A stretch of 41,773 bases of DNA from NCBI GenBank assembly GCA_012837895.1, contig DUQH01000146.1:1-41773 (forward strand). The letters run 5' to 3'. Made by a program: the position numbers and the translations under genes. Of the stretch, positions 2,367 through 40,874 are shown in pieces. The notes beneath the pieces are model-generated. The model worked only from the letters and a program-made list of their open reading frames with translations, did no database searches and was not told the origin of the DNA. The stretch comes from Candidatus Fermentithermobacillaceae bacterium. Its GTDB lineage: Bacteria > Bacillota > Sulfobacillia > Fermentithermobacillales > Fermentithermobacillaceae. Numbering within the stretch: the stretch's first letter is position 1; the number at the start of each line of letters is the position of its first letter.

Positions 2367-5207
2367 TTGGGAAACAACCAGAAGCAGGAACCCAAGACCC
2401 TGCCCAAAGCTTATGAACCCAAGAGTTTCGAAAGCAAGTGGTACAAGTATTGGATGGATAATGAGTTGTTCAAGGCCTCGGTTGTTCCAGGCAAACCCAG
2501 GTTCTGTATCGTAATACCGCCGCCCAACGTAACTGGAGCGCTTCACATGGGCCACGCCCTGGACACTACGCTCCAGGACATATTTATCAGGTACAACAGG
2601 ATGCTGGGCTATGAGACCCTTTGGCTGCCCGGGACAGACCACGCTTCGATCGCCACCCATGCCAAGATTGAAGAAATGCTGGCAGAAGAGGGTGCTTCCC
2701 GCTGGGAACTTGGGCGGGAGAAGTTCCTGGAACGTGCGTGGGAATGGAAAGAGAAGTACGGGCACATCATCACCGACCAGCTCAAGACCATGGGCGCATC
2801 GTGCGACTGGTCAAGGGAACGCTTTACCATGGACGAAGTGTGCTCCAGGGCGGTAACCGAAGTGTTCGTAAGGCTCTACGAAAAAGGCCTTATCTACCGC
2901 GGCAAGTACATGGTGAACTTCTGCCCAGGGTGCCGCACGGTAATCTCAGACATCGAGGTGAACCACGAGGACACCAACGGATACCTGTACTACATCAAGT
3001 ACCCCCTTCTGGGTGAAGGAGACTTACCAGAAACTCTTGCAGGCGCTTCCCAAGGGGCAAGCGAAACAAACGGCGTAAACGGGGCACACGGCGCTCCCCG
3101 AACCCGGGCCTTGCGTTCCTTTGAATCTGCATCTCACGCAGGAACGCCTGCCGGCGATTATACAGAATTCATGGCAGTTGCCACCACAAGGCCTGAGACA
3201 ATGCTGGGCGACACGGCTGTAGCGGTAAACCCTGAGGATCCGAGATACGGCCACCTTGTGGGTAGGTACGCCGTGTTGCCTCTGGTGGGCCGCATCATAC
3301 CCATAATAGCTGACGAGCATGTAGACCCTGAGTTCGGCACAGGGGCCGTCAAGATAACCCCTGCCCATGACCCGAATGACTTCGATATGGGGCTCAGGCA
3401 CGGCCTTGATTTCGTTTCAGTAATCAATACCGAAGGTAACATGACAGGTGAAGCAGGCAAGTACGCAGGGCTGGAAAGGTACCAGTGCCGCCACCAGGTG
3501 CTGGCAGACCTGAAGCAGCTGGGCTACATGGTAAAGACTGAAGAACACAGGCACTCAGTAGGCCATTGCGACAGGTGCAGTTCTGCCGTAGAGCCTCTCA
3601 TATCAGAGCAATGGTTCGTCAAGATGAAACCCCTGGCAGGGCCGGCTTTGGACGTGGTACGCCAGGGCGAAGTGTCTTTTGTGCCTGAGCGGTTCACCAA
3701 GATATACCAACACTGGATGGAAAACATCAGGGACTGGTGTATTTCCAGGCAGCTTTGGTGGGGACACAGGATACCCGCGTGGTACTGCGATGATTGTGGC
3801 GAGGTCATTGTAGCCAGAACCGCTCCTGAGAAGTGTACCAAGTGCGGCGGCACGGTGCACCAGGATGAAGATGTGCTTGACACCTGGTTCTCATCAGCTC
3901 TCTGGCCGTTTTCCACAATGGGCTGGCCTGATGATACAGAGGATCTTAGGTATTTCTTCCCCACCGACATCCTGATTACCGGGTACGACATCATCTTCTT
4001 CTGGGTGGCAAGGATGATCTTTTCATCAATGGAGTTTATGAACCAGCCTCCCTTCCACCACGTGCTCATCCACGGCCTGGTAAGGGATGCACTGGGCAGG
4101 AAAATGTCCAAGAGTCTGGGCAACGGCATAGACCCGTTGGAGGTAGTCGATAAATATGGTGCCGATGCGCTGAGGATATCCCTGGTGAGCGGGGTGGCCA
4201 TGGGCAGCGATATGCGCTTCTATGACGAAAAGGTTGAAGGCGCAAGGAACTTCTGCAACAAACTTTGGAACGCTGCAAGGTACTGCCAGTCCAACTTGGA
4301 AGGCTGGACGCCGCCAGCGCCAGGCAACCAGCCCAAACAAGGGGAACTCTCCACAATAACATCCAGGTGGATCCTGTCCAGGCTAGAGCGCACCATCGAG
4401 GCAGTGGAAGATGCCTTGAAGCGGTATGAGCCAGGCGAAGCTATCGATACGATAATCGACTTTGTGTGGAACCAGTTCTGCGACTGGTACATCGAGTTCT
4501 CAAAAGAATCCCTGGCAGACCCTGAGACCCGGGAAGAAACCCAATTTGTGCTCTGGCTCGTGCTCAGGCAGTCCCTGGCACTGCTCCATCCCTTTGCACC
4601 GTTCATAACGGAAGAGCTGTGGTCTTACCTGCCAGAGCCAGCGGGAGCAGAAGCCCGCCCGCTCATAGTGTCTGACTACCCGGCGCCTGGCAATCTCTCT
4701 GTCGATGCTGAAGCAGAAGAACTGATTGGCAACTTGATAGAAGTGATAAAGGGCATCCGTAACATGCGGGCTGAAGTGAATATCCCCACAGGCAAGAGGG
4801 AGAAAGCAGTGATCCTGGCTGAGAAGCCCGGTCTGTGGGAAACCTTTGCCCCGTACATCAAGAGGCTGTCCTGGACAGAGCCCCTGGAAATCCTTGGCCA
4901 GGGAGACCCGGATATCGAAGCAAAGCGCCCCAGGCAGGCCCTGGTATCAGTGGCAACAGGTGCTGAAGTATTCCTGCCCCTCGAAGGTGTAATTGACATT
5001 GACAAAGAAATATCCAGACTGGAGAAGACTATCGGGGAAATCCAGCAGGAGCTGGACAAAACAGCAAAGCGTTTGTCTGACAAGGAGTTTCTTGAAAAAG
5101 CTCCCGAGCACATTATAGAAAACCACCGGAAGAGGCATCAGGACAACCAAGAAAAACTCCAAGCTCTCAAGAACAGGGTGGAACTGCTGCTCAAGATAAG
5201 AGAATGA
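2367..5207 (+). CDS. valS: Valyl-tRNA synthetase
   Basis: Class I aminoacyl-tRNA synthetase that charges tRNA-Val with valine in the cytoplasm. The signature NVTGALHMGHA carries the HIGH-type motif (HMGH, residues 60-63), and KMSKS lies at about 579-583. The editing domain, anticodon-binding domain and C-terminal coiled coil (about 875-946) are all present. The length of 946 aa is longer than usual for the family. Much of the excess is a low-complexity segment at residues ~218-265, rich in Gly/Ala/Ser/Thr, near the start of the editing domain. The start is TTG with GAGAGGTGAG just upstream. The T-box leader controls it. Confidence 0.98.
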   Translation: MGNNQKQEPKTLPKAYEPKSFESKWYKYWMDNELFKASVVPGKPRFCIVIPPPNVTGALHMGHALDTTLQDIFIRYNRMLGYETLWLPGTDHASIATHAKIEEMLAEEGASRWELGREKFLERAWEWKEKYGHIITDQLKTMGASCDWSRERFTMDEVCSRAVTEVFVRLYEKGLIYRGKYMVNFCPGCRTVISDIEVNHEDTNGYLYYIKYPLLGEGDLPETLAGASQGASETNGVNGAHGAPRTRALRSFESASHAGTPAGDYTEFMAVATTRPETMLGDTAVAVNPEDPRYGHLVGRYAVLPLVGRIIPIIADEHVDPEFGTGAVKITPAHDPNDFDMGLRHGLDFVSVINTEGNMTGEAGKYAGLERYQCRHQVLADLKQLGYMVKTEEHRHSVGHCDRCSSAVEPLISEQWFVKMKPLAGPALDVVRQGEVSFVPERFTKIYQHWMENIRDWCISRQLWWGHRIPAWYCDDCGEVIVARTAPEKCTKCGGTVHQDEDVLDTWFSSALWPFSTMGWPDDTEDLRYFFPTDILITGYDIIFFWVARMIFSSMEFMNQPPFHHVLIHGLVRDALGRKMSKSLGNGIDPLEVVDKYGADALRISLVSGVAMGSDMRFYDEKVEGARNFCNKLWNAARYCQSNLEGWTPPAPGNQPKQGELSTITSRWILSRLERTIEAVEDALKRYEPGEAIDTIIDFVWNQFCDWYIEFSKESLADPETREETQFVLWLVLRQSLALLHPFAPFITEELWSYLPEPAGAEARPLIVSDYPAPGNLSVDAEAEELIGNLIEVIKGIRNMRAEVNIPTGKREKAVILAEKPGLWETFAPYIKRLSWTEPLEILGQGDPDIEAKRPRQALVSVATGAEVFLPLEGVIDIDKEISRLEKTIGEIQQELDKTAKRLSDKEFLEKAPEHIIENHRKRHQDNQEKLQALKNRVELLLKIRE

Positions 5208-5234
5208 CAAGCCAAGAACGACAAGGCAGAAGCA

Positions 5235-5278
5235 ACTGAAGAGTGACTGAAGAGTGACAGAAGAATGATAGAAGATTA
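5235..5278. repeat. Four tandem copies of an 11-bp unit between valS and folC
   Basis: Units ACTGAAGAGTG, ACTGAAGAGTG, ACAGAAGAATG and ATAGAAGATTA follow one another exactly in the valS-folC gap, decaying toward the 3' end. The first two are identical. No gene is visible in this 135-bp gap. Confidence 0.9.
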
Positions 5279-21800: not shown

Positions 21801-22547
21801 TTATCGGATGGTGATCAACGCCTCAATCTTGGAGTACGTCACATCACCTATCCCCGATACCTTCTTCAGGTCTTCTTTGCGGGCAAACGGCCCTCTCTGA
21901 AGGCGAAATTCGACTATCGCCGCGGCTTTAGCAGGGCCTATTCCAGGAAGGGCCTCCAACTCCCGGGCCGTTGCAGTATTTATGTTGATGGGAAAAGGCA
22001 CCCCCACTGGAGATGAACCGGACGGATGTGAACCGGAACCGCTTCTCTCTGATCCGTATCCGCCGGATCCGGACGGGGAGCCTCCCCCAGTGCCCGTATG
22101 GGAACCAGAAAACTCGCCCTTCTTTGGCACGTATATTTTATCTTGGTCGTAGAGCACACCTGCAAGATTCAGGTAATCCAAGTCCGCATCCTCTAGGGGA
22201 GCTGCCAGTTCCAGGGCTTCGTAAATCCTTTGTCCCTGTTTCAACTGATACACCCCTGGGGCCTCCACCGCACCGGCTATGTGTACAAAAATAACGTTAT
22301 CATCGTCTTGAGTCGGATCTTCCACAGCACCGCCGGAGCTCTGAGGGTCCCCCTCATCTATGGGCTCGTTGCGGCCGCCTTGGCCTTGGCCTGACTCCAA
22401 ATCGCCCCAGGCTGGCGATTGACCTTCTGGGATAAGCACGAGTTCGTCGCTTGCTGAAGGAAAAATGCCGCGCCACCATAAGCTGGCGGCTCCTATGAGC
22501 AGTAGAAGTGATAACGCGTAGATGATGATATCTGCCCGACGGTTCAT
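21801..22547 (-). CDS. comEA: ComEA-type DNA-binding competence protein
   Basis: 248 aa. An N-terminal membrane anchor (residues ~7-25, IIIYALSLLLLIGAASLWW) leads to a SLBB domain (about 95-150: VFVHIAGAVEAPGVYQLKQG ... LNLAGVLYDQDKIYVP). After a Gly/Ser-rich linker (~155-180) comes a helix-hairpin-helix domain at the C-terminus (INTATARELEALPGIGPAKA ... LKKVSGIGDVTYSKIEALI). It binds incoming double-stranded DNA at the cell surface and passes it toward ComEC. The start at 22547 is chosen because the hydrophobic anchor begins just after it and a promoter lies immediately upstream. ComEC is encoded about 8 kb away on the same strand. Confidence 0.95.
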   Translation of the reverse strand: MNRRADIIIYALSLLLLIGAASLWWRGIFPSASDELVLIPEGQSPAWGDLESGQGQGGRNEPIDEGDPQSSGGAVEDPTQDDDNVIFVHIAGAVEAPGVYQLKQGQRIYEALELAAPLEDADLDYLNLAGVLYDQDKIYVPKKGEFSGSHTGTGGGSPSGSGGYGSERSGSGSHPSGSSPVGVPFPININTATARELEALPGIGPAKAAAIVEFRLQRGPFARKEDLKKVSGIGDVTYSKIEALITIR

Positions 22548-22553
22548 GGCAAT

Positions 22554-22582
22554 ATAATACCAGAATTGGCACAACCTGACAA
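22554..22582 (-). promoter_or_regulatory. Predicted comEA promoter, apparently leaderless
   Basis: On the minus strand, TTGTCA (22577-22582), a 17-bp spacer and TATTAT (22554-22559). Only 6 bp separate the -10 box from the comEA ATG, so transcription would begin at or next to the start codon. No Shine-Dalgarno precedes the ATG. Confidence 0.6.
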
Positions 22583-22691: not shown

Positions 22692-23295
22692 ATGGTTCAC
22701 GACATGCACCAATCGTTTGGGCCTTCACCATTTTTCTGCCAAAGCGGTGCACCACATGCACCAATCTTTCTGTTTTTTGTCTCCTGGAAGGCTGAAATGG
22801 TGTACTACGTATACCATTCTTCCCGGTTTTGCGTAGGATGCCGCCCAAAATGGTGCACCACGTGCACCATTGTCTGGGTTTCGCCGTCCCATGAAGACTA
22901 TAATGGTGCACCACATGCGCCATTTTTCCGGTTTTCAGGTCTCATTACGGTCAGAATGGTGCACTGGATGCACCAATTACTCTGGTTTTCGGGATGAGTC
23001 CCGCCAAAACGGTGCACCAGGTGCACCATTGTCTAGGTTTCGCCGTCCTATGAAGACTAAAATGGTGCACCACATGCACCATTTTTCCGGTTTTCAGGTC
23101 TCATCGCGGCCAGAATGGTGTACTGGATGCACCAATTACTCTGGTTTTCGGGATGAGTCCCGCCAAAACGGCGCACCACATGCACCATTTTTCCGGTTTT
23201 CATGCCTCATTGCGGTCAGAATGGCGCACTGGATGCACCAATTACTCTGGTTTTCGGGATGCTCCTCGATAAAACGGCGCACAACGTGCACCAAT
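22692..23295. repeat. Array 1: twelve 53-bp palindromic units
   Basis: Units begin at 22692, 22744, 22797, 22850, 22903, 22956, 23009, 23062, 23115, 23168, 23221 and 23274: a 53-bp step with one 52. Each carries a palindrome near ATGGTGCAC-3 nt-GTGCACCAT; the unit at 22850 is perfect. The ~31-bp segments between them fall into recurring types. One contains GTTTCGCCGTCC-ATGAAGACTA (A), one CCGGTTTTCAGGTCTCAT (B), one CTGGTTTTCGGGATGAG (C), and they run in the order A-B-C-A-B-C-B-C from 22850. The A-B-C block is 159 bp long. The array fills the comEA-leuS gap. Open frames crossing it on both strands are by-products of the repeat. Confidence 0.95.
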
Positions 23296-23363
23296 CTTCT
23301 TGAATCCCCAAGGCGCCAGTCGCCCTACCGTCCGCCAAGATTTCTGCAGCGGTTTTTCTATAC

Positions 23364-23405
23364 AAAAAGCCGTTGACAGTGGCGCACTTGCTGCCCGTCA
23401 ACGGC
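23364..23405 (-). terminator. Intrinsic terminator of leuS
   Basis: On the minus strand, GCCGTTGAC (complement of 23397-23405) pairs with GTCAACGGC (complement of 23369-23377) across a 19-nt loop, followed directly by TTTTTGT (complement of 23362-23368). It is about 110 bp beyond the leuS stop codon. Confidence 0.85.
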
Positions 23406-23514
23406 TATGACTGCTCACATCAACAACATGGCGCGGCCCATGCCCCCCATGCCTGACAAAATCTCAAGGGCCATGCCCGACAGCATACATCATCATACTC
23501 TGATTCTCCGATTG

Positions 23515-26118
23515 TTAGCGCTTGGTGACTATGTTCACCAGTTTGTCCTTGACAACAACCACTTTGGCGATCTTGTCCCTGGCATCAGGACCCTCTCCCA
23601 GCAACTTCACGATCCTTTCAGACGCAAGAGCCCTATCTGTGACCTCTTCATCGCTGGAACCGGCTTCAATCTGGATCCGGTCACGCACCTTGCCGTTAAC
23701 CTGGACTACAACTGTTACGGTTCTTTCTGCAATAGTGGCCTGGTCATACTCAGGCCAGCCTGCTTCTTCAATCGTCCCGCTGTAGCCAAGTTTCTCCCAC
23801 AACTCTTGAGCCATATGCGGCGCAAACGGTGAGAGCAGCTTCAGCAAAGCTGTCTTAGCTTCTTCCAGTGCGTCTGCACTTTGTGAGTCCTTCGGAAGCC
23901 TCTGGTATCTGCCGATGTAGTTCGACAGCTCCATGAGCTGGGACACTGCCGTGTTGAGCGCTAACCTTTCCAGGTCCTCAGATACCTTCTTTATGCTCTG
24001 GTGAGCTATCCTCAGCAGCCCTTCTGTAGAAACCCCGTCACCGGGGGCTCCTTCTGCCCCTGGCTGCTCGCCGGTATGCTCCCCGGTAACCTGCCTCCAA
24101 ACCCGTCGCAGGAACCTGTTGGCACCCTCAACCCCCCGGTCAGACCACTCAAGGTCTCTTTCAGGAGGCGCCGCAAACATCATGAACACACGCATAACAT
24201 CGGCGCCAAACTTGCCGACTATTTCATCCGGGGAAACAACGTTGCCCTTGGACTTGGACATTTTGGCACCGTCCCGGACCACCATGCCCTGGGTGAGCAG
24301 GTTCTGGAAGGGCTCCTCAGCAGGAACCAATCCTGCGTCATACAGTACCTTTGTGATGAACCTTGCATACAGCAGGTGCATAACCGCATGCTCTACCCCG
24401 CCGATATACAAGTCCACCGGACTCCAGTAATCCACGTCTTCTTTGGCAAACGCTACGTCTGTGTTGTATGGGCTGGCAAACCGGAAGAAGTACCACGATG
24501 AGCACACGAACGTGTCCATAGTGTCTGTTTCCCTCCTGGCGCCCTCGCCACATACAGGACAAGTTGTATTCACAAATTCCTCGTGCCTTGCCAAAGGCGA
24601 GGGCCCTCCGGACGTAACCTTCAACCCCAACGGCAGAATCACAGGAAGATCCTCTTTAGGAACGGGCACTGTACCGCACTTGGGACAGTAGATCACCGGA
24701 ATAGGTGCTCCCCAATACCTTTGCCTGGAGATCAGCCAATCCCGCATCTTGTAGGTAACCTTACCCCGCCCCATGCCGTTTTCCTCGAGGAACCGGGTGA
24801 CCTCCGCCTGCCCTTCTTCGCTGCCAAGGCCCGTAAACTTGCCTGAGTCTACCATGATCCCGGGATCGACGTAGGCGTTCTCCATCTCCTCCAGCCTCAG
24901 GCTCTTATCTTCATTTTGAATCACTATCTTGATGGGCAGTCCGTATTTCCTTGCGAAATGGAAGTCCCTTTCGTCGTGGCCGGGCACTCCCATGACCGCT
25001 CCTGTACCGTATTCATAGATCACGTAATTGCCTATCCAAATCGGCACCTGGTCGCCTGACACTGGATTGGTGGCATAGGCGCCGGTAAATATACCTTCTT
25101 TCTCGAGAGTCTCGGCTGTCCTGTCGATCTCAGACATCCTCATCACTTTGTCAATGAATGCCCGTACAGGCGCTTCGTACTCTGTGCCCTGAATGATCTT
25201 CTCAACCAACGGATGTTCAGGCGCAAGCACCAGGTAGGTGACGCCGTAAATCGTGTCCTGGCGCGTTGTGAACACAGGAATCTTCTCGCCATCGGGCCCT
25301 GCAAAATCTATCTCCGCACCTTCACTCTTTCCGATCCAATTCGCCTGCATGATCTTGATGTGCTCAGGCCAGCCGTCGAGTTTCTCAAGGTCTGCCAGCA
25401 GCCGCTCGGCATAGTCAGTTATCTTGAAAAACCACTGGTCCATGCTCCGCCTTTCCACCAGGGAATCGCAGCGCCAGCACTTACCTTGCTCTACCTGCTC
25501 ATTAGCCAATACAGTATGACACTTGGGACACCAGTTGGCCGGAGCAGTCTTTTTGTACGCCAGCCCGCGCTCATAAAGCAGTAGGAACAGCCACTGGGTC
25601 CACTTGTAGTACTCTGGGAATGCCGTGGTAACTTCCCGAGACCAATCGTAAGTGAAACCCATCCTCTTGAGTTGCTCCCTCATGTGGGCGATGTTGTTCC
25701 ATGTCCAAGTATCAGGTTGTATGCCACGGTCGATGGCAGCATTTTCTGCAGGCAGCCCGAAAGAATCCCAGCCCATGGGATGGAGCACATTGTATCCCCT
25801 TGCCCGCTTATAGCGGCTGATCACATCGCCTATAGTGTAGTTTCTTACATGGCCTACGTGGAGTTCCCCAGACGGGTACGGGAACATCTCGAGCAAGTAG
25901 AATTTGGGTTTGGACGGGTCTTCTGTAACAACGTATGTCTCATTGTCCCGCCAAATCCCCTGCCATTTCACCTCGATTTGCCAGGGATTGTAACCTCCGT
26001 TGCCATTCCCGGAAGCTTCATTGTTCAGGGAAGCTCCGCTATTGCATGCACACTCGTTTGCTGCCCCTCCGGCACAGCAGTTATCTTCCTTATCCACACG
26101 GTTCTTGTCGTCATCCAT
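23515..26118 (-). CDS. leuS: Leucyl-tRNA synthetase
   Basis: Class I synthetase charging tRNA-Leu. The signature YPSGELHVGHVRNY carries HVGH (about residues 87-90), the editing domain follows, and KMSKS sits in GAKMSKSKGNVVSPD. The C-terminal domain ends VVVKDKLVNIVTKR. Length is about 867 aa. The first ~43 residues are a low-complexity Asn/Gly/Ala/Cys-rich extension before the native start of the fold (NPWQIEVKWQ). A second insert (GEHTGEQPGAEGAPGDG) lies in the anticodon-binding region. The ATG at 26118 is preferred, 9 nt after GGGGGG; a GTG two codons earlier is closer to it. It is controlled by an upstream T-box leader. Confidence 0.98.
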   Translation of the reverse strand: MDDDKNRVDKEDNCCAGGAANECACNSGASLNNEASGNGNGGYNPWQIEVKWQGIWRDNETYVVTEDPSKPKFYLLEMFPYPSGELHVGHVRNYTIGDVISRYKRARGYNVLHPMGWDSFGLPAENAAIDRGIQPDTWTWNNIAHMREQLKRMGFTYDWSREVTTAFPEYYKWTQWLFLLLYERGLAYKKTAPANWCPKCHTVLANEQVEQGKCWRCDSLVERRSMDQWFFKITDYAERLLADLEKLDGWPEHIKIMQANWIGKSEGAEIDFAGPDGEKIPVFTTRQDTIYGVTYLVLAPEHPLVEKIIQGTEYEAPVRAFIDKVMRMSEIDRTAETLEKEGIFTGAYATNPVSGDQVPIWIGNYVIYEYGTGAVMGVPGHDERDFHFARKYGLPIKIVIQNEDKSLRLEEMENAYVDPGIMVDSGKFTGLGSEEGQAEVTRFLEENGMGRGKVTYKMRDWLISRQRYWGAPIPVIYCPKCGTVPVPKEDLPVILPLGLKVTSGGPSPLARHEEFVNTTCPVCGEGARRETDTMDTFVCSSWYFFRFASPYNTDVAFAKEDVDYWSPVDLYIGGVEHAVMHLLYARFITKVLYDAGLVPAEEPFQNLLTQGMVVRDGAKMSKSKGNVVSPDEIVGKFGADVMRVFMMFAAPPERDLEWSDRGVEGANRFLRRVWRQVTGEHTGEQPGAEGAPGDGVSTEGLLRIAHQSIKKVSEDLERLALNTAVSQLMELSNYIGRYQRLPKDSQSADALEEAKTALLKLLSPFAPHMAQELWEKLGYSGTIEEAGWPEYDQATIAERTVTVVVQVNGKVRDRIQIEAGSSDEEVTDRALASERIVKLLGEGPDARDKIAKVVVVKDKLVNIVTKR

Positions 26119-26217
26119 AGTCACGTACCCCCCTGCTTATCATTTCCGCTCACTGAAACGCGATCCAATCCAAAACCCAGGCCAAGCAATCTTTCCGGGC
26201 CATCCGGTTTGCCCACT

Positions 26218-26317: not shown

Positions 26318-26575
26318 GCCCTCATCCTAGGGACGAGGGCTCAGTCAGCTCAATCGTGGTACCACCCTGGTTCGGTTACCACTTAGCTATGCTTGCGTGA
26401 TAACCGCACTCTATGCGCTTAACGCGCGCCTTACGCGTGCTGCTACCAGGCTCAAGCCGTTCACAACACATGCTCCGGGACGAGTTCGGAATGTTCCACG
26501 GTACCGGGCTCGCACCTTTCCCCAGCTCTCTTAACCGGGAAGGAATCCCTACTGCTTCCCTTCATAGCGTGTATA
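26318..26575 (-). promoter_or_regulatory. T-box leader (tRNA-Leu sensing) of leuS
   Basis: On the minus strand the T-box AGGGTGGTACCACG is at 26355-26368. It is followed by the terminator GCCCTCGTCC-CTA-GGATGAGGGC (26318-26340) and CTTGTGTTTATT. Upstream, stem I (GAGAGCTGGGG from about 26530) contains CCGAACTCGTCCCGG, in which CTC (26483-26485) is a Leu codon in the specifier position, matching the gene. The leader is longer than needed between terminator and leuS because of a terminator duplication and a tRNA-like insert. Confidence 0.92.
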
Positions 26576-33279: not shown

Positions 33280-33864
33280 AAGATTCCTCCCTATACGTTT
33301 CTGCACCCGCCGGTTGACGGCAGGCGCAAATCCAAGTTTCCTGAAGCGATTAGTCCTTAGTACTCCGTTCTACTACTGTATGCAACCACTGATTATTATG
33401 TTAACTTGCCATCGCGAAAAAGAGGATATCACGATCCCCTCCTACCCAGGTGCGGTCCATATACCCCTCCGGCGCGTCCCGCTATGCGATCATACTTAAG
33501 CCTGCGCGTCCTGCTATGCGATCACATGAAAGCCTGCTGTCGTCATCCCCTATTCATCAATGCATAAAAAAGAAGGGAAACAAGGCGCGTAGGTCGAAAT
33601 GATGGCAGACAAGTTAAATATGAACAGAGTCAACATTTTTCGATCTTTGCGTAATTGCCGGTTGATGAGCCACTGATACAAAGAACCCAGCGCAACATAT
33701 AATCAACGCCCTACTGCCATAATACCGGTACATGCACACGGATAAGTCTTCAGGCTTGATGTAGACGCTTGCGCTTTGCTGTCATGCGAAGTGCCAGGCA
33801 TGCGAGGGACACAACAGACACCAGGGTCACAAAGAGCACGAGTGGATACAAAGGAGGCTAATAG
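33280..33864. other. Divergent intergenic region with a 32-bp tandem repeat
   Basis: No gene is supported. Two copies of a 32-bp unit (GCGCGTCC-GCTATGCGATCA ... AAGCCT) lie head to tail at 33472-33503 and 33504-33535. The rest looks like ordinary divergent promoter space; the AAAGGAGG at about 33850 is the ribosome binding site of the M20 gene. Confidence 0.6.
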
Positions 33865-36792: not shown

Positions 36793-37923
36793 CTAGGGCT
36801 CAATAAATGGAACCAGGAGCATGAATATCAACTGTATCCCGAGAATAACTGACAGGAGAACCCAGGGCCACTGCCTTATCAATTCGCTAAACCGCGCCCC
36901 GGATTTGGGCTTTTCAGTAAACTCCTGCCATAAGCTGCGGAACTCATGCCATAGCCAGGCAAGTCTGTGACGGAACACAAATACTACTACTACAACCGCT
37001 AGACGGCCCCCGACGCAAATTATCTCAGCCCAAGAAGCCTTCACAAGATCGTGATACTTCCCCACCAGTTGGGGCAAGAGGTTACCTGCAGCATGAATAA
37101 GAACCGCGGGGACAAGGGAATCGTAGCGGAGCACAGCTAAAGCAGCAACAACTCCGATGACGAAAGCTCCTGGCATCACTGCGGGCTGATGTAACACAGC
37201 GAAAATAATGCTGGAGAAAATCACCGCCCATGCGGGGCCCCACTGGTAGAATGCCGTCACAAAAAATCCCCTGAACAGCAATTCTTCGGATATGGCAACC
37301 ACAACCGCGAAAAGGAACACGCGCCCTAGAAATGTTTCAGGCGCGTCAGTCTGGGAAAACCATTCCATCCACTCTGTGATCTTACCCTTAGAGAGCCAAT
37401 CAATTACCTGCCACAGCAGCGTTTCCGTTGATATAACTCCCGCACTGAACAAAGCTAGATGCACGAAGTCTGGATCCCAAGTGGGGCGCAGGTAAAACGT
37501 CTTTTTTGGACACAATCCTTTGGACCAGGTCAGGTAAATCGCCACTACCGGGAATCCCAAGGCGCTGACAACCTGTAACCAGTATCCGGACATGCCAAGG
37601 CCGCGGGCGATAAAGGAAGGCAGAAACATACCTATCAGAAGTGCTTTGCCGGCGTCAATCGGAGCAATTGTCTTAGGGGTTGATTCTGGCACTTCATCGC
37701 CCTGGGTTCCCGTCACTTCACAAGTTGAGCCTTCGCTCACATGATCGGTTTCAGGTACATCATGGTTTCCAAGCAAACCGTAGGTTTCCGGCTTACGGTG
37801 CGTTTCTGGCTTACCGTGCGTTTCTGGCTTACCGTGATTGTCCGGCGCTGCACTGTTATGGAGAATGCCGCCACCATTTTCAGCCGCACCATCGTTTCCG
37901 GGCATATGATTGCTATAGGGCAC
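36793..37923 (-). CDS. CPBP family intramembrane metalloprotease
   Basis: 376 aa. Residues ~1-90 are hydrophilic and repetitive (HGKPET, HGKPET, HRKPET at about 30-47); about eight membrane segments follow. The CAAX/Abi motifs are complete: EELLFRG (Glu213, Glu214, Arg218), FAVLHQP (His245) and HAAGN (His277, Asn281). Members cleave proteins within the membrane; bacterial roles include bacteriocin self-immunity and protein processing. The last ~70 residues contain a membrane-proximal basic stretch and a final hydrophobic helix. The start is ATG; an internal start after the repeat tract would leave the protease intact. It lies 81 bp upstream of the methyltransferase on the same strand. Confidence 0.93.
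   Translation of the reverse strand: MPYSNHMPGNDGAAENGGGILHNSAAPDNHGKPETHGKPETHRKPETYGLLGNHDVPETDHVSEGSTCEVTGTQGDEVPESTPKTIAPIDAGKALLIGMFLPSFIARGLGMSGYWLQVVSALGFPVVAIYLTWSKGLCPKKTFYLRPTWDPDFVHLALFSAGVISTETLLWQVIDWLSKGKITEWMEWFSQTDAPETFLGRVFLFAVVVAISEELLFRGFFVTAFYQWGPAWAVIFSSIIFAVLHQPAVMPGAFVIGVVAALAVLRYDSLVPAVLIHAAGNLLPQLVGKYHDLVKASWAEIICVGGRLAVVVVVFVFRHRLAWLWHEFRSLWQEFTEKPKSGARFSELIRQWPWVLLSVILGIQLIFMLLVPFIEP
37780..37833. repeat. Three 18-bp tandem units in the 5' end of the CPBP gene
   Basis: Units GTAGGTTTCCGGCTTACG, GTGCGTTTCTGGCTTACC and GTGCGTTTCTGGCTTACC (the last two identical) encode the GKPETH-type hexapeptide repeat on the minus strand. Confidence 0.9.
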
Positions 37924-39650: not shown

Positions 39651-39793
39651 CCTTGAGTTGCAGTCAACCTAAGCTCCCAGCTATAACCTAAGTTGCAGTC
39701 AATCCAAGTTCCCATCTGTAACCTAAGTTGCAGTCAAGCCCTGAGTTCCAGCCAAGACCTGAGTTGCAGTCGATCCCTGAGTTACAGTCAGCC
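39651..39793. repeat. 18-bp minisatellite, about eight degenerate units
   Basis: Units of the form CCTGAGTTGCAGTCAAG start near 39651, 39668, 39687, 39704, 39722, 39740, 39758 and 39776, 17-19 bp apart and settling at 18 in the right half. It lies between the DUF554 start and sfsA. A short plus-strand open frame from 39728 reads PELQS-type hexapeptide repeats, but I do not consider it a supported gene. Confidence 0.85.
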
Positions 39794-40076
39794 CCGCCAC
39801 CGGCGACGTGGAACCATCCGGACGCCTTCAACGGTCAACCTGCACCAACGGTGACAAGACCCCACGGACATGCTATCCTTAACAAAATCACCGGCTCTCT
39901 GGATCCAGTGGAACCTGCGGGCAAGCAATTGCAATCGCCAGCGGTTCCTGAAGTGGACACATAGCTGAAGGAAGGTCACATTCCCTAAGGTGAGTATGAC
40001 GCAAGGGACGGGTTACGCGGGGACTGCCAGCCACAGGTGTAAGCCGGGCAGGGGCTGCAAAGGAGGCAATATTCGA

Positions 40077-40874
40077 ATGAGTAATACCGCTAAGATCGAC
40101 CTTGCTATCCCCCTGGGCCATCTTGAAGAAGGCACTCTGGCTGAGCGGCCCAACAGGTTCGTGGCAGTAGTTAACTTAGACGGGCAGACCATCAACGCCC
40201 ATGTGCCCGATCCCGGCCGGCTTGAGGAGTTGCTGTACCCTGGAAACCCTGTTATGGTCCGGAACGCCGATGCACCTGCGCGGAAAACCCTATACGACCT
40301 TGTGCTTGCTGCGTTCGACGACATTTGGGTCTGCGTGGATACAAGGTACCCAAACCGCCTTTTTGAACGAGCTGCCAGACAAGGCGCCCTGGAGGCATTC
40401 AGCGGGTACACTTCGGTGCGGAGGGAAGTCACCCTGGAGCAAGCTCTCAAGAGCGTAGAAAGTCCCGCCCGACAAACCATACCAAGGGATAAGAAGTCCA
40501 AAGCATCCAAGACGCCTAAGAGCAGGTTCGATTTTCTGCTCCAAGGACCGGGGAAGCGTCCCCTGTTTGTTGAAGTGAAATCAGTCAGCTTGTGTGTTGA
40601 CGGAACAGGGCTGTTCCCCGATGCGCCTACACTGAGGGGCGCAAGGCACATCAATGAGATGAAGGAAGCCTTAGACCTGGGTTTGGACGCTTGCGTTGTG
40701 TTTATTGCCCAAAGGCAAGATGTGGCTCGGGTTTCAGCCCACAGGCAAATGGACCCAAGGTTTGCACAAGTTCTGGATGAAGCTGCTGAAGCAGGCGTCA
40801 GGGTTCATGCGTACCGGTGTGCGGTAAGCCCAGCTCACATCAGGTTGGAACCTGCTGAGGTGCCCTACTGTTGA
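40077..40874 (+). CDS. sfsA: SfsA family DNA-binding protein / nuclease-fold protein
   Basis: 265 aa. Its OB-like N-terminus (RPNRFVAVVNLDGQTINAHV, PDPGRLEELLYPG) is followed by a PD-(D/E)XK-type core (RFDFLL ... PLFVEVKSVSL) and the typical RGARHINEMKEALDLG and VFIAQRQDVARVSAH segments. SfsA was named for stimulating maltose gene expression in E. coli; its fold suggests nucleic-acid cleavage or binding. It is about 30 residues longer than usual because of a Lys/Ser/Pro-rich insert (PRDKKSKASKTPK). The ATG at 40077 has AAGGAGG about 9 nt upstream. Array 3 begins 11 bp after the stop codon. Confidence 0.95.
   Translation: MSNTAKIDLAIPLGHLEEGTLAERPNRFVAVVNLDGQTINAHVPDPGRLEELLYPGNPVMVRNADAPARKTLYDLVLAAFDDIWVCVDTRYPNRLFERAARQGALEAFSGYTSVRREVTLEQALKSVESPARQTIPRDKKSKASKTPKSRFDFLLQGPGKRPLFVEVKSVSLCVDGTGLFPDAPTLRGARHINEMKEALDLGLDACVVFIAQRQDVARVSAHRQMDPRFAQVLDEAAEAGVRVHAYRCAVSPAHIRLEPAEVPYC

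Follow-up and report, generated by a model that had tools for sequence, protein, structure and literature searches.

Dispersed arrays of helically phased palindromes as probable binding platforms for a putative dimeric protein in Candidatus Fermentithermobacillaceae

The window analysed here is the whole 41,773-nucleotide stretch of contig C79, one of the 146 contigs of a MAG (G000; 2.05 Mb, 96% complete) of Candidatus Fermentithermobacillaceae. It contains two arrays of regularly spaced palindromes: array 1 sits between a terminator-like hairpin behind leuS and the predicted promoter of a comEA-like gene, and array 2 starts just behind sfsA. The features at both loci are:

21801..22547, minus strand: comEA-like gene (SLBB and helix-hairpin-helix), conserved start ATG at 22547, downstream of array 1
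22554..22582, minus strand: predicted Sigma-70-like comEA promoter, TTGTCA-17-TATTAT with extended TG, ~110 bp from the closest array 1 site
22693..23293, no strand: array 1, twelve 19-bp palindromic sites with 53-bp spacing, one of 52; consensus with flanks AAAATGGTGCACnnnGTGCACCATTTT
22845..23189, no strand: 159-bp higher-order repeat of spacer types A, B and C, ~2.2 copies, 93% match
22851..22869, no strand: perfect array 1 site TGGTGCACCACGTGCACCA, 16/16 consensus match
23363..23406, minus strand: terminator-like hairpin of leuS, AGCCGTTGAC...GTCAACGGCT TTTTT, read from the sequence, between leuS and array 1
23515..26124, minus strand: leuS (leucyl-tRNA synthetase), 3′ end towards array 1
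39990..40874, plus strand: sfsA, with array 2 located 3′ of its stop codon
40886..41710, no strand: array 2, sixteen sites with the same palindrome as array 1, starting 12 bp past sfsA

A comparable hairpin is found 3′ of leuS in the congeners G004 and G001. A Pfam search of the ORF spanning array 1 gave no match. The window also carries two T-box leaders (26326-26574 on the minus strand and 1999-2307 on the plus strand), one of them directly upstream of leuS, as well as unrelated short tandem repeats at 33472-33537, 37784-37836 and 39656-39794 (32, 18 and 35 bp).

The sites of array 1 start at positions 22693, 22745, 22798, 22851, 22904, 22957, 23010, 23063, 23116, 23169, 23222 and 23275, that is, one interval of 52 bp is followed by ten of 53 bp. 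Each site agrees with the 8-3-8 consensus TGGTGCACnnnGTGCACCA at 13-16 of 16 positions and scores 29-40 bits with a 27-bp symmetric weight matrix. The site scan thus bears out, with coordinates, the twelve palindromes reported in the initial annotation at a spacing of 53 bp, once 52. That annotation had also described the spacers as types A, B and C recurring in order as a 159-bp repeat, and this part stands for ~2.2 copies only. The actual spacer order is x, y, z, A, B, C, A, B, C, B, C, in which the first three spacers differ from one another and a 106-bp BC repeat takes over after the 159-bp repeat. Tandem Repeats Finder returned periods of 53, 159 and 106 bp, which together with the spacer order indicates that the higher-order repeat is not fixed at three units. 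The label "array 1" in the initial annotation implies a further array, and array 2 is its counterpart. Array 2 has a spacing of 53 bp except for a single 64-bp interval, longer by 11 bp or one helical turn, periods of 53, 106 and 212 bp, and a higher-order repeat of 212 bp. As a general rule, the A/B/C order therefore fails: the repeat of array 2 comprises four units, and many arrays have unrelated spacers. A coding repeat was rejected, because 53 is not divisible by 3 and the repeat of array 2 measures 212 bp.

The two arrays belong to a larger family. Using the 27-bp symmetric matrix (consensus AAAATGGTGCACnnnGTGCACCATTTT), which gave no match of at least 8 bits in 459 kb of shuffled sequence, we identified ~20 arrays with ~170 sites in G000. 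The palindrome with up to two mismatches occurs 147 times in this genome, compared to 1-4 times for a reversed control pattern, and BLAST with array 1 combined with the site positions indicates 22 places. The true number of sites must exceed ~170, since many contigs end within an array, and some of the contig ends counted are two halves of one array. Tandem-repeat analysis and a profile search over the genome and its relatives, both proposed earlier as checks, confirmed the periods and revealed an element that recurs across the genome, a larger phenomenon than first noted.

Among the relatives, the congeneric MAGs AS09scLD_335 (G001), DTU015 (G002) and AS08sgBPME_372 (G004) of Candidatus Fermentithermobacillaceae harbor 11-51 sites each (at most one mismatch), while G003 of the same genus has one; the array-bearing MAG contig L131 derives from a near-identical strain of G002. 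Nine genomes from four other genera of the family contain essentially no sites and no comparable array. In a scan of a genome collection of ~85,000 species, arrays outside the genus were found only in Cohnella thailandensis, with a spacing of 51 bp. The exact consensus is present at seven sites in this species and at one site in a single one of the 149 other family genomes sampled (Paenibacillaceae side). Searches of plasmid and phage collections gave no match to the arrays, and a plasmid or phage origin is disfavoured, as three viral-contig matches have at most two sites and another spacing. Pattern matches in Citrobacter, Demequina and Ornithinimicrobium proved on inspection to lack a comparable array. 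Eight Citrobacter species share one conserved TGGTGCACAAATTGCACCA site with an additional half-site in front of it, always across a 34-bp gap (L094-L096, L098, L100, L115, L116, L118), which is unrelated to the arrays, and Ornithinimicrobium L112 carries four similar palindromes at 5111-5245, spaced by 29, 58 and 29 bp. No other palindrome family was found in 400 kb of the relative G006, with a strict search that also missed several known arrays. The loci L078 (G004) and L087 (G001) encode 99.8-100% identical proteins around one site, although they come from different species bins, which suggests cross-binning or very recent transfer.

The spacing between sites is exactly 53 bp in 288 of 326 intervals, though most spacers are unrelated; N runs are left out of this count, including intervals of 64 (L057) and 42 bp (L066) that span N. 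The deviating intervals measure 42 or 43 bp (21 cases), 51, 52 or 54 bp (11 cases), 95 bp (twice) and 63, 64, 105 and 48 bp (once each). Only the interval of 48 bp is clearly out of phase, nearly all exceptions being near whole helical turns. When each locus and length was counted once, a phase of 10.5 bp described the 15 locus-level deviating events better than uniform spacing in 50,000 of 50,000 trials. In G001, there are arrays that alternate between 43 and 53 bp, corresponding to four and five turns. Within many arrays, the spacers differ from each other like near-random sequence, still their length is kept. Such divergence implies that there was enough time for length changes, which were retained almost only if in phase, and no other observation speaks as strongly against a neutral minisatellite as this persistence of phase despite spacer saturation. 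The proposal that 53 bp represents five turns and places all sites on one face of the helix holds up well, since the phase survives length changes.

The palindrome itself is under strong constraint. At the GG/CC of each half-site, related units differ in only 0-0.2% of comparisons, whatever the divergence of the spacers, and saturation is reached at a plateau of 0.19 for the 16 palindrome positions, whereas the spacer reaches 0.69 and the 3-bp centre 0.66. A neutral minisatellite would show no such position-specific constraint. Changes in the two half-sites are nearly independent: at position 7, for example, both are changed 15 times with 20.5 expected. Position 4 counts against this, with 24 double changes where 15.1 are expected. 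Independent change fits a protein dimer on DNA and not a base-paired stem. Random spacing or a loss of palindromy in relatives, which the initial annotation would have taken as signs of a neutral minisatellite, was looked for and not observed, and the idea of a platform stands.

Across 90 non-redundant spacers, A/T content is highest at ~10.5 and 21 bp from the centre of each palindrome (z about –11 relative to within-spacer shuffles), and the five 42-bp spacers likewise show a peak near 20-21 bp. Such phasing is what minor-groove contacts or a bend towards one common face might produce, and it is supporting rather than decisive; part of it could have been left behind by a shared ancestral unit, because T prevails on one side and A on the other. 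The static curvature predicted by a wedge model is only weakly raised (46.6 versus 42.6 for shuffled spacers) and was dismissed as a general explanation.

All arrays lie between genes, apart from a 64-bp overlap of one predicted gene with an array edge, and no gene lies inside an array. Their neighbours are unrelated genes, and most arrays follow closely on a stop codon, at a distance from promoters; the median distance to 3′ ends is 92 bp and that to 5′ ends 236 bp. About a dozen orthologous array positions, with flanking proteins that are 66-92% identical, are common to different species (loci at the same position joined by a tilde):

Shared positions, part 1: L031~L052, L032~L051, L033~L076, L035/L042~L056, L036/L045~L079, L038~L054~L069
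Shared positions, part 2: L040~L070, L044~L064, L046~L075, L059~L072, L065~L077, L086~L053

The spacers at these syntenic arrays mostly lack recognisable similarity; leaving aside the near-identical strain pair L044/L082, the closest exceptions include L038~L069 and L065~L077. Compared with L044, unrelated sequence, possibly an inserted element, interrupts the array of L082 behind site seven (from ~4670). Array 1 is a gain specific to its lineage: in G004, G001 and G003, leuS and comEA are neighbours with no array between them, and G002 has an assembly gap there. Arrays must then also disperse, and, as G003 has a single site, no given array, or even the complete set, can be required by every member of the genus. 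Units of array 1 are 77-79% identical to units of the C121 array by BLAST, indicating that units move between arrays.

Based on these observations, we consider it probable that the arrays are conserved, dispersed and helically phased binding platforms for a putative dimeric protein. Phase, independent half-sites, invariance of GG/CC and synteny all speak for the platform suggested in the initial annotation; that a protein binds, and that it does so as a dimer, is what we infer from the sequence. Such a dimer would contact each palindrome through two half-sites TGGTGCAC around a free 3-bp centre, and the A/T-rich flanks ~10.5 bp from the palindrome centre would belong to each site. A winged-helix dimer could fit this geometry, with major-groove contacts at ~5-7 bp and A/T flanks at ~10 bp from the dyad. 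Neighbouring sites would be held at integral turns, five or less often four or six, and bound dimers would all lie on one face of the DNA, where they could touch or co-operate. The bound array would probably form a compact or bent nucleoprotein patch serving chromosome architecture or anchoring/partition and not the control of single genes, since the ~20 arrays are scattered among unrelated genes, for the most part directly 3′ of stop codons and not near promoters. In this they would act much as a plasmid centromere array such as sopC does, though spread over a chromosome. Satellite-like DNA of bacteria is usually dismissed as a neutral minisatellite, whereas here selection on phase can be read from the sequence alone. 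If a protein does bind, the arrays would make up an architectural or partition-like system not yet described, from an uncultured lineage of Bacillota, and the four-, five- and six-turn versions in related species would provide a natural test of inter-dimer spacing versus nucleoprotein assembly.

The main rival to a binding platform is a selfish or neutral dispersing repeat, REP/BIME-like or a minisatellite, which copies itself between intergenic sites and whose palindrome is kept by the copying machinery, through recognition by a transposase or recombinase, and not by use in the host. The gain of array 1 in one lineage and its absence from leuS-comEA in three congeners, the exchange of units with C121, higher-order repeats indicative of unequal exchange and the location behind genes, where insertion harms least, all agree with it. 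However, none of the five genomes of the genus encodes a Y1/RAYT-type transposase (Y1_Tnp, PF01797), whereas control genomes matched, which disfavours RAYT-driven REP elements; moreover, copying alone does not explain exact helical spacing with saturated spacers or the retention of about a dozen orthologous positions. We therefore regard a selfish repeat as unlikely.

Two further explanations were weighed, and to both we attach very little probability. Transcribed hairpin arrays, acting behind genes as RNA attenuators, 3′-end stabilisers or bidirectional terminators, are suggested by the potential of AAAATGGTGCACnnnGTGCACCATTTT to fold, T-runs on both strands, two array sites with terminator-like scores and the preference for 3′ ends. 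When each array is read in the direction of its upstream gene, single transitions yield slightly more G-U pairs than A-C mismatches (182:142), an excess that ordinary mutational strand bias could explain, but A-C mismatches still arise from 44% of single-sided transitions. Half-site changes are independent and not compensatory, RNA has no need of a 10.5-bp phase, and an Rfam search over the array detected no family (matches in the window are T-boxes and tRNAs only). Array 1 is moreover separated from leuS by a terminator-like hairpin and from comEA by that gene's promoter, so that the hairpin RNA offered as an alternative in the initial annotation is disfavoured. Operator or decoy arrays that titrate a transcription factor or control a neighbouring gene would be equally hard to sustain. 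Their dimer-type geometry with A/T-rich flanks, the ~170 sites per genome and the position of array 1 upstream of the predicted comEA promoter would be in line with this role, yet the flanking genes are unrelated across arrays, 5′ ends are avoided and isolated sites do not precede a recognisable regulator gene.

None of the candidates considered as the putative binder (ParB, a Noc-like paralogue, Lrp/AsnC, Y1/RAYT and a DNA methylase encoded in the window) fits the arrays. The ParB_N genes of array carriers encode the chromosomal ParB and the Noc-like paralogue, neither of which adjoins arrays. Each family genome, array carriers included, has a single canonical parS (TGTTTCACGTGAAACA), and chromosomal ParB is likewise present. 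A replacement of chromosomal parS by the arrays was rejected, as canonical parS is intact and the array site has a 3-bp centre. The paralogue is encoded in the order rsmG-noc-soj-spo0J and has the Noc-type residues Q173/K179/R201, based on a comparison with the published specificity residues of Noc (PMC7383237). It is found in the array carriers G000, G001, G002 and G004 but also in the array-poor G003 and the array-free G008 and G009; Noc as the binder is disfavoured by this distribution and by the difference between array sites and TATTTCCCGGGAAATA. At L187, L186 and L188, the paralogue lacks the usual GERR and ENLQR motifs of ParB and may thus not switch with CTP. An Lrp/AsnC protein wrapping the array was rejected because PF01037 is found in none of 14 family genomes, with matching controls. 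The methylase does not follow the arrays either, being present in array-free genera and only weakly matched in G004.

A literature search for the element returned nothing matching, and the arrays are not members of the sopC type or of any other family tested. The arrays of Cohnella thailandensis (L123-L130, G041) have the same half-site, TGGTGCAY...GTGCACCA, in a nearly identical palindrome (TGGTGCAYnnnRTGCACCA), and are likewise dispersed over several loci, but their spacing is 51 bp, their spacers are conserved, and the species belongs to a different bacterial class. A CRISPR array does not agree with degenerate repeats, spacers that recur in several arrays and the alternation of 43 and 53 bp in G001. 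Mycobacterial MIRU/VNTR loci consist of ~50-bp tandem units at dispersed intergenic places, in which the whole unit repeats and which are not known to form palindrome arrays with diverged spacers. The arrays match them in unit size and intergenic dispersal but are palindromes with diverged spacers. Like REP, REPIN and BIME elements, they are extragenic, dispersed and composed of repeated palindromes, and REP in Pseudomonas fluorescens sometimes also form tandem clusters with fixed spacings of 72 and 112 bp (PMC3116915); in contrast, the genus lacks RAYT, and the arrays combine 53-bp helical phasing with strongly constrained independent half-sites.

Further parallels lie in systems of chromosome and plasmid organisation. 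ParB and Noc systems also use dispersed palindromes for a dimeric chromosome-organising protein, and the array half-site TGGTGCAC is two changes away from the parS half-site TGTTTCAC, sharing 6 of 8 bases. In contrast to the arrays, parS and NBS have no 3-bp centre and form no phased arrays. In the F-plasmid centromere sopC, each repeat carries a palindrome bound by a SopB dimer. This centromere comprises about twelve 43-bp repeats (PMC9178275) and thus resembles the arrays in the tandem order of ~twelve regularly spaced palindromes, some arrays of G001 even having 42/43-bp spacing. A sopC-like plasmid centromere was nevertheless rejected, as the flanks in the window are leuS/comEA and sfsA and no parA/parB-type operon adjoins. 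Unlike sopC, ~20 arrays are dispersed on the chromosome here, with 53-bp units, spacers that differ within an array and a 3-bp centre. As a tentative proposal, less probable than the platforms themselves, these ~20 arrays and their putative dimeric protein might constitute a genus-specific chromosome-organising system, plasmid-centromere-like but scattered, which keeps orthologous sites and seeds new intergenic places.
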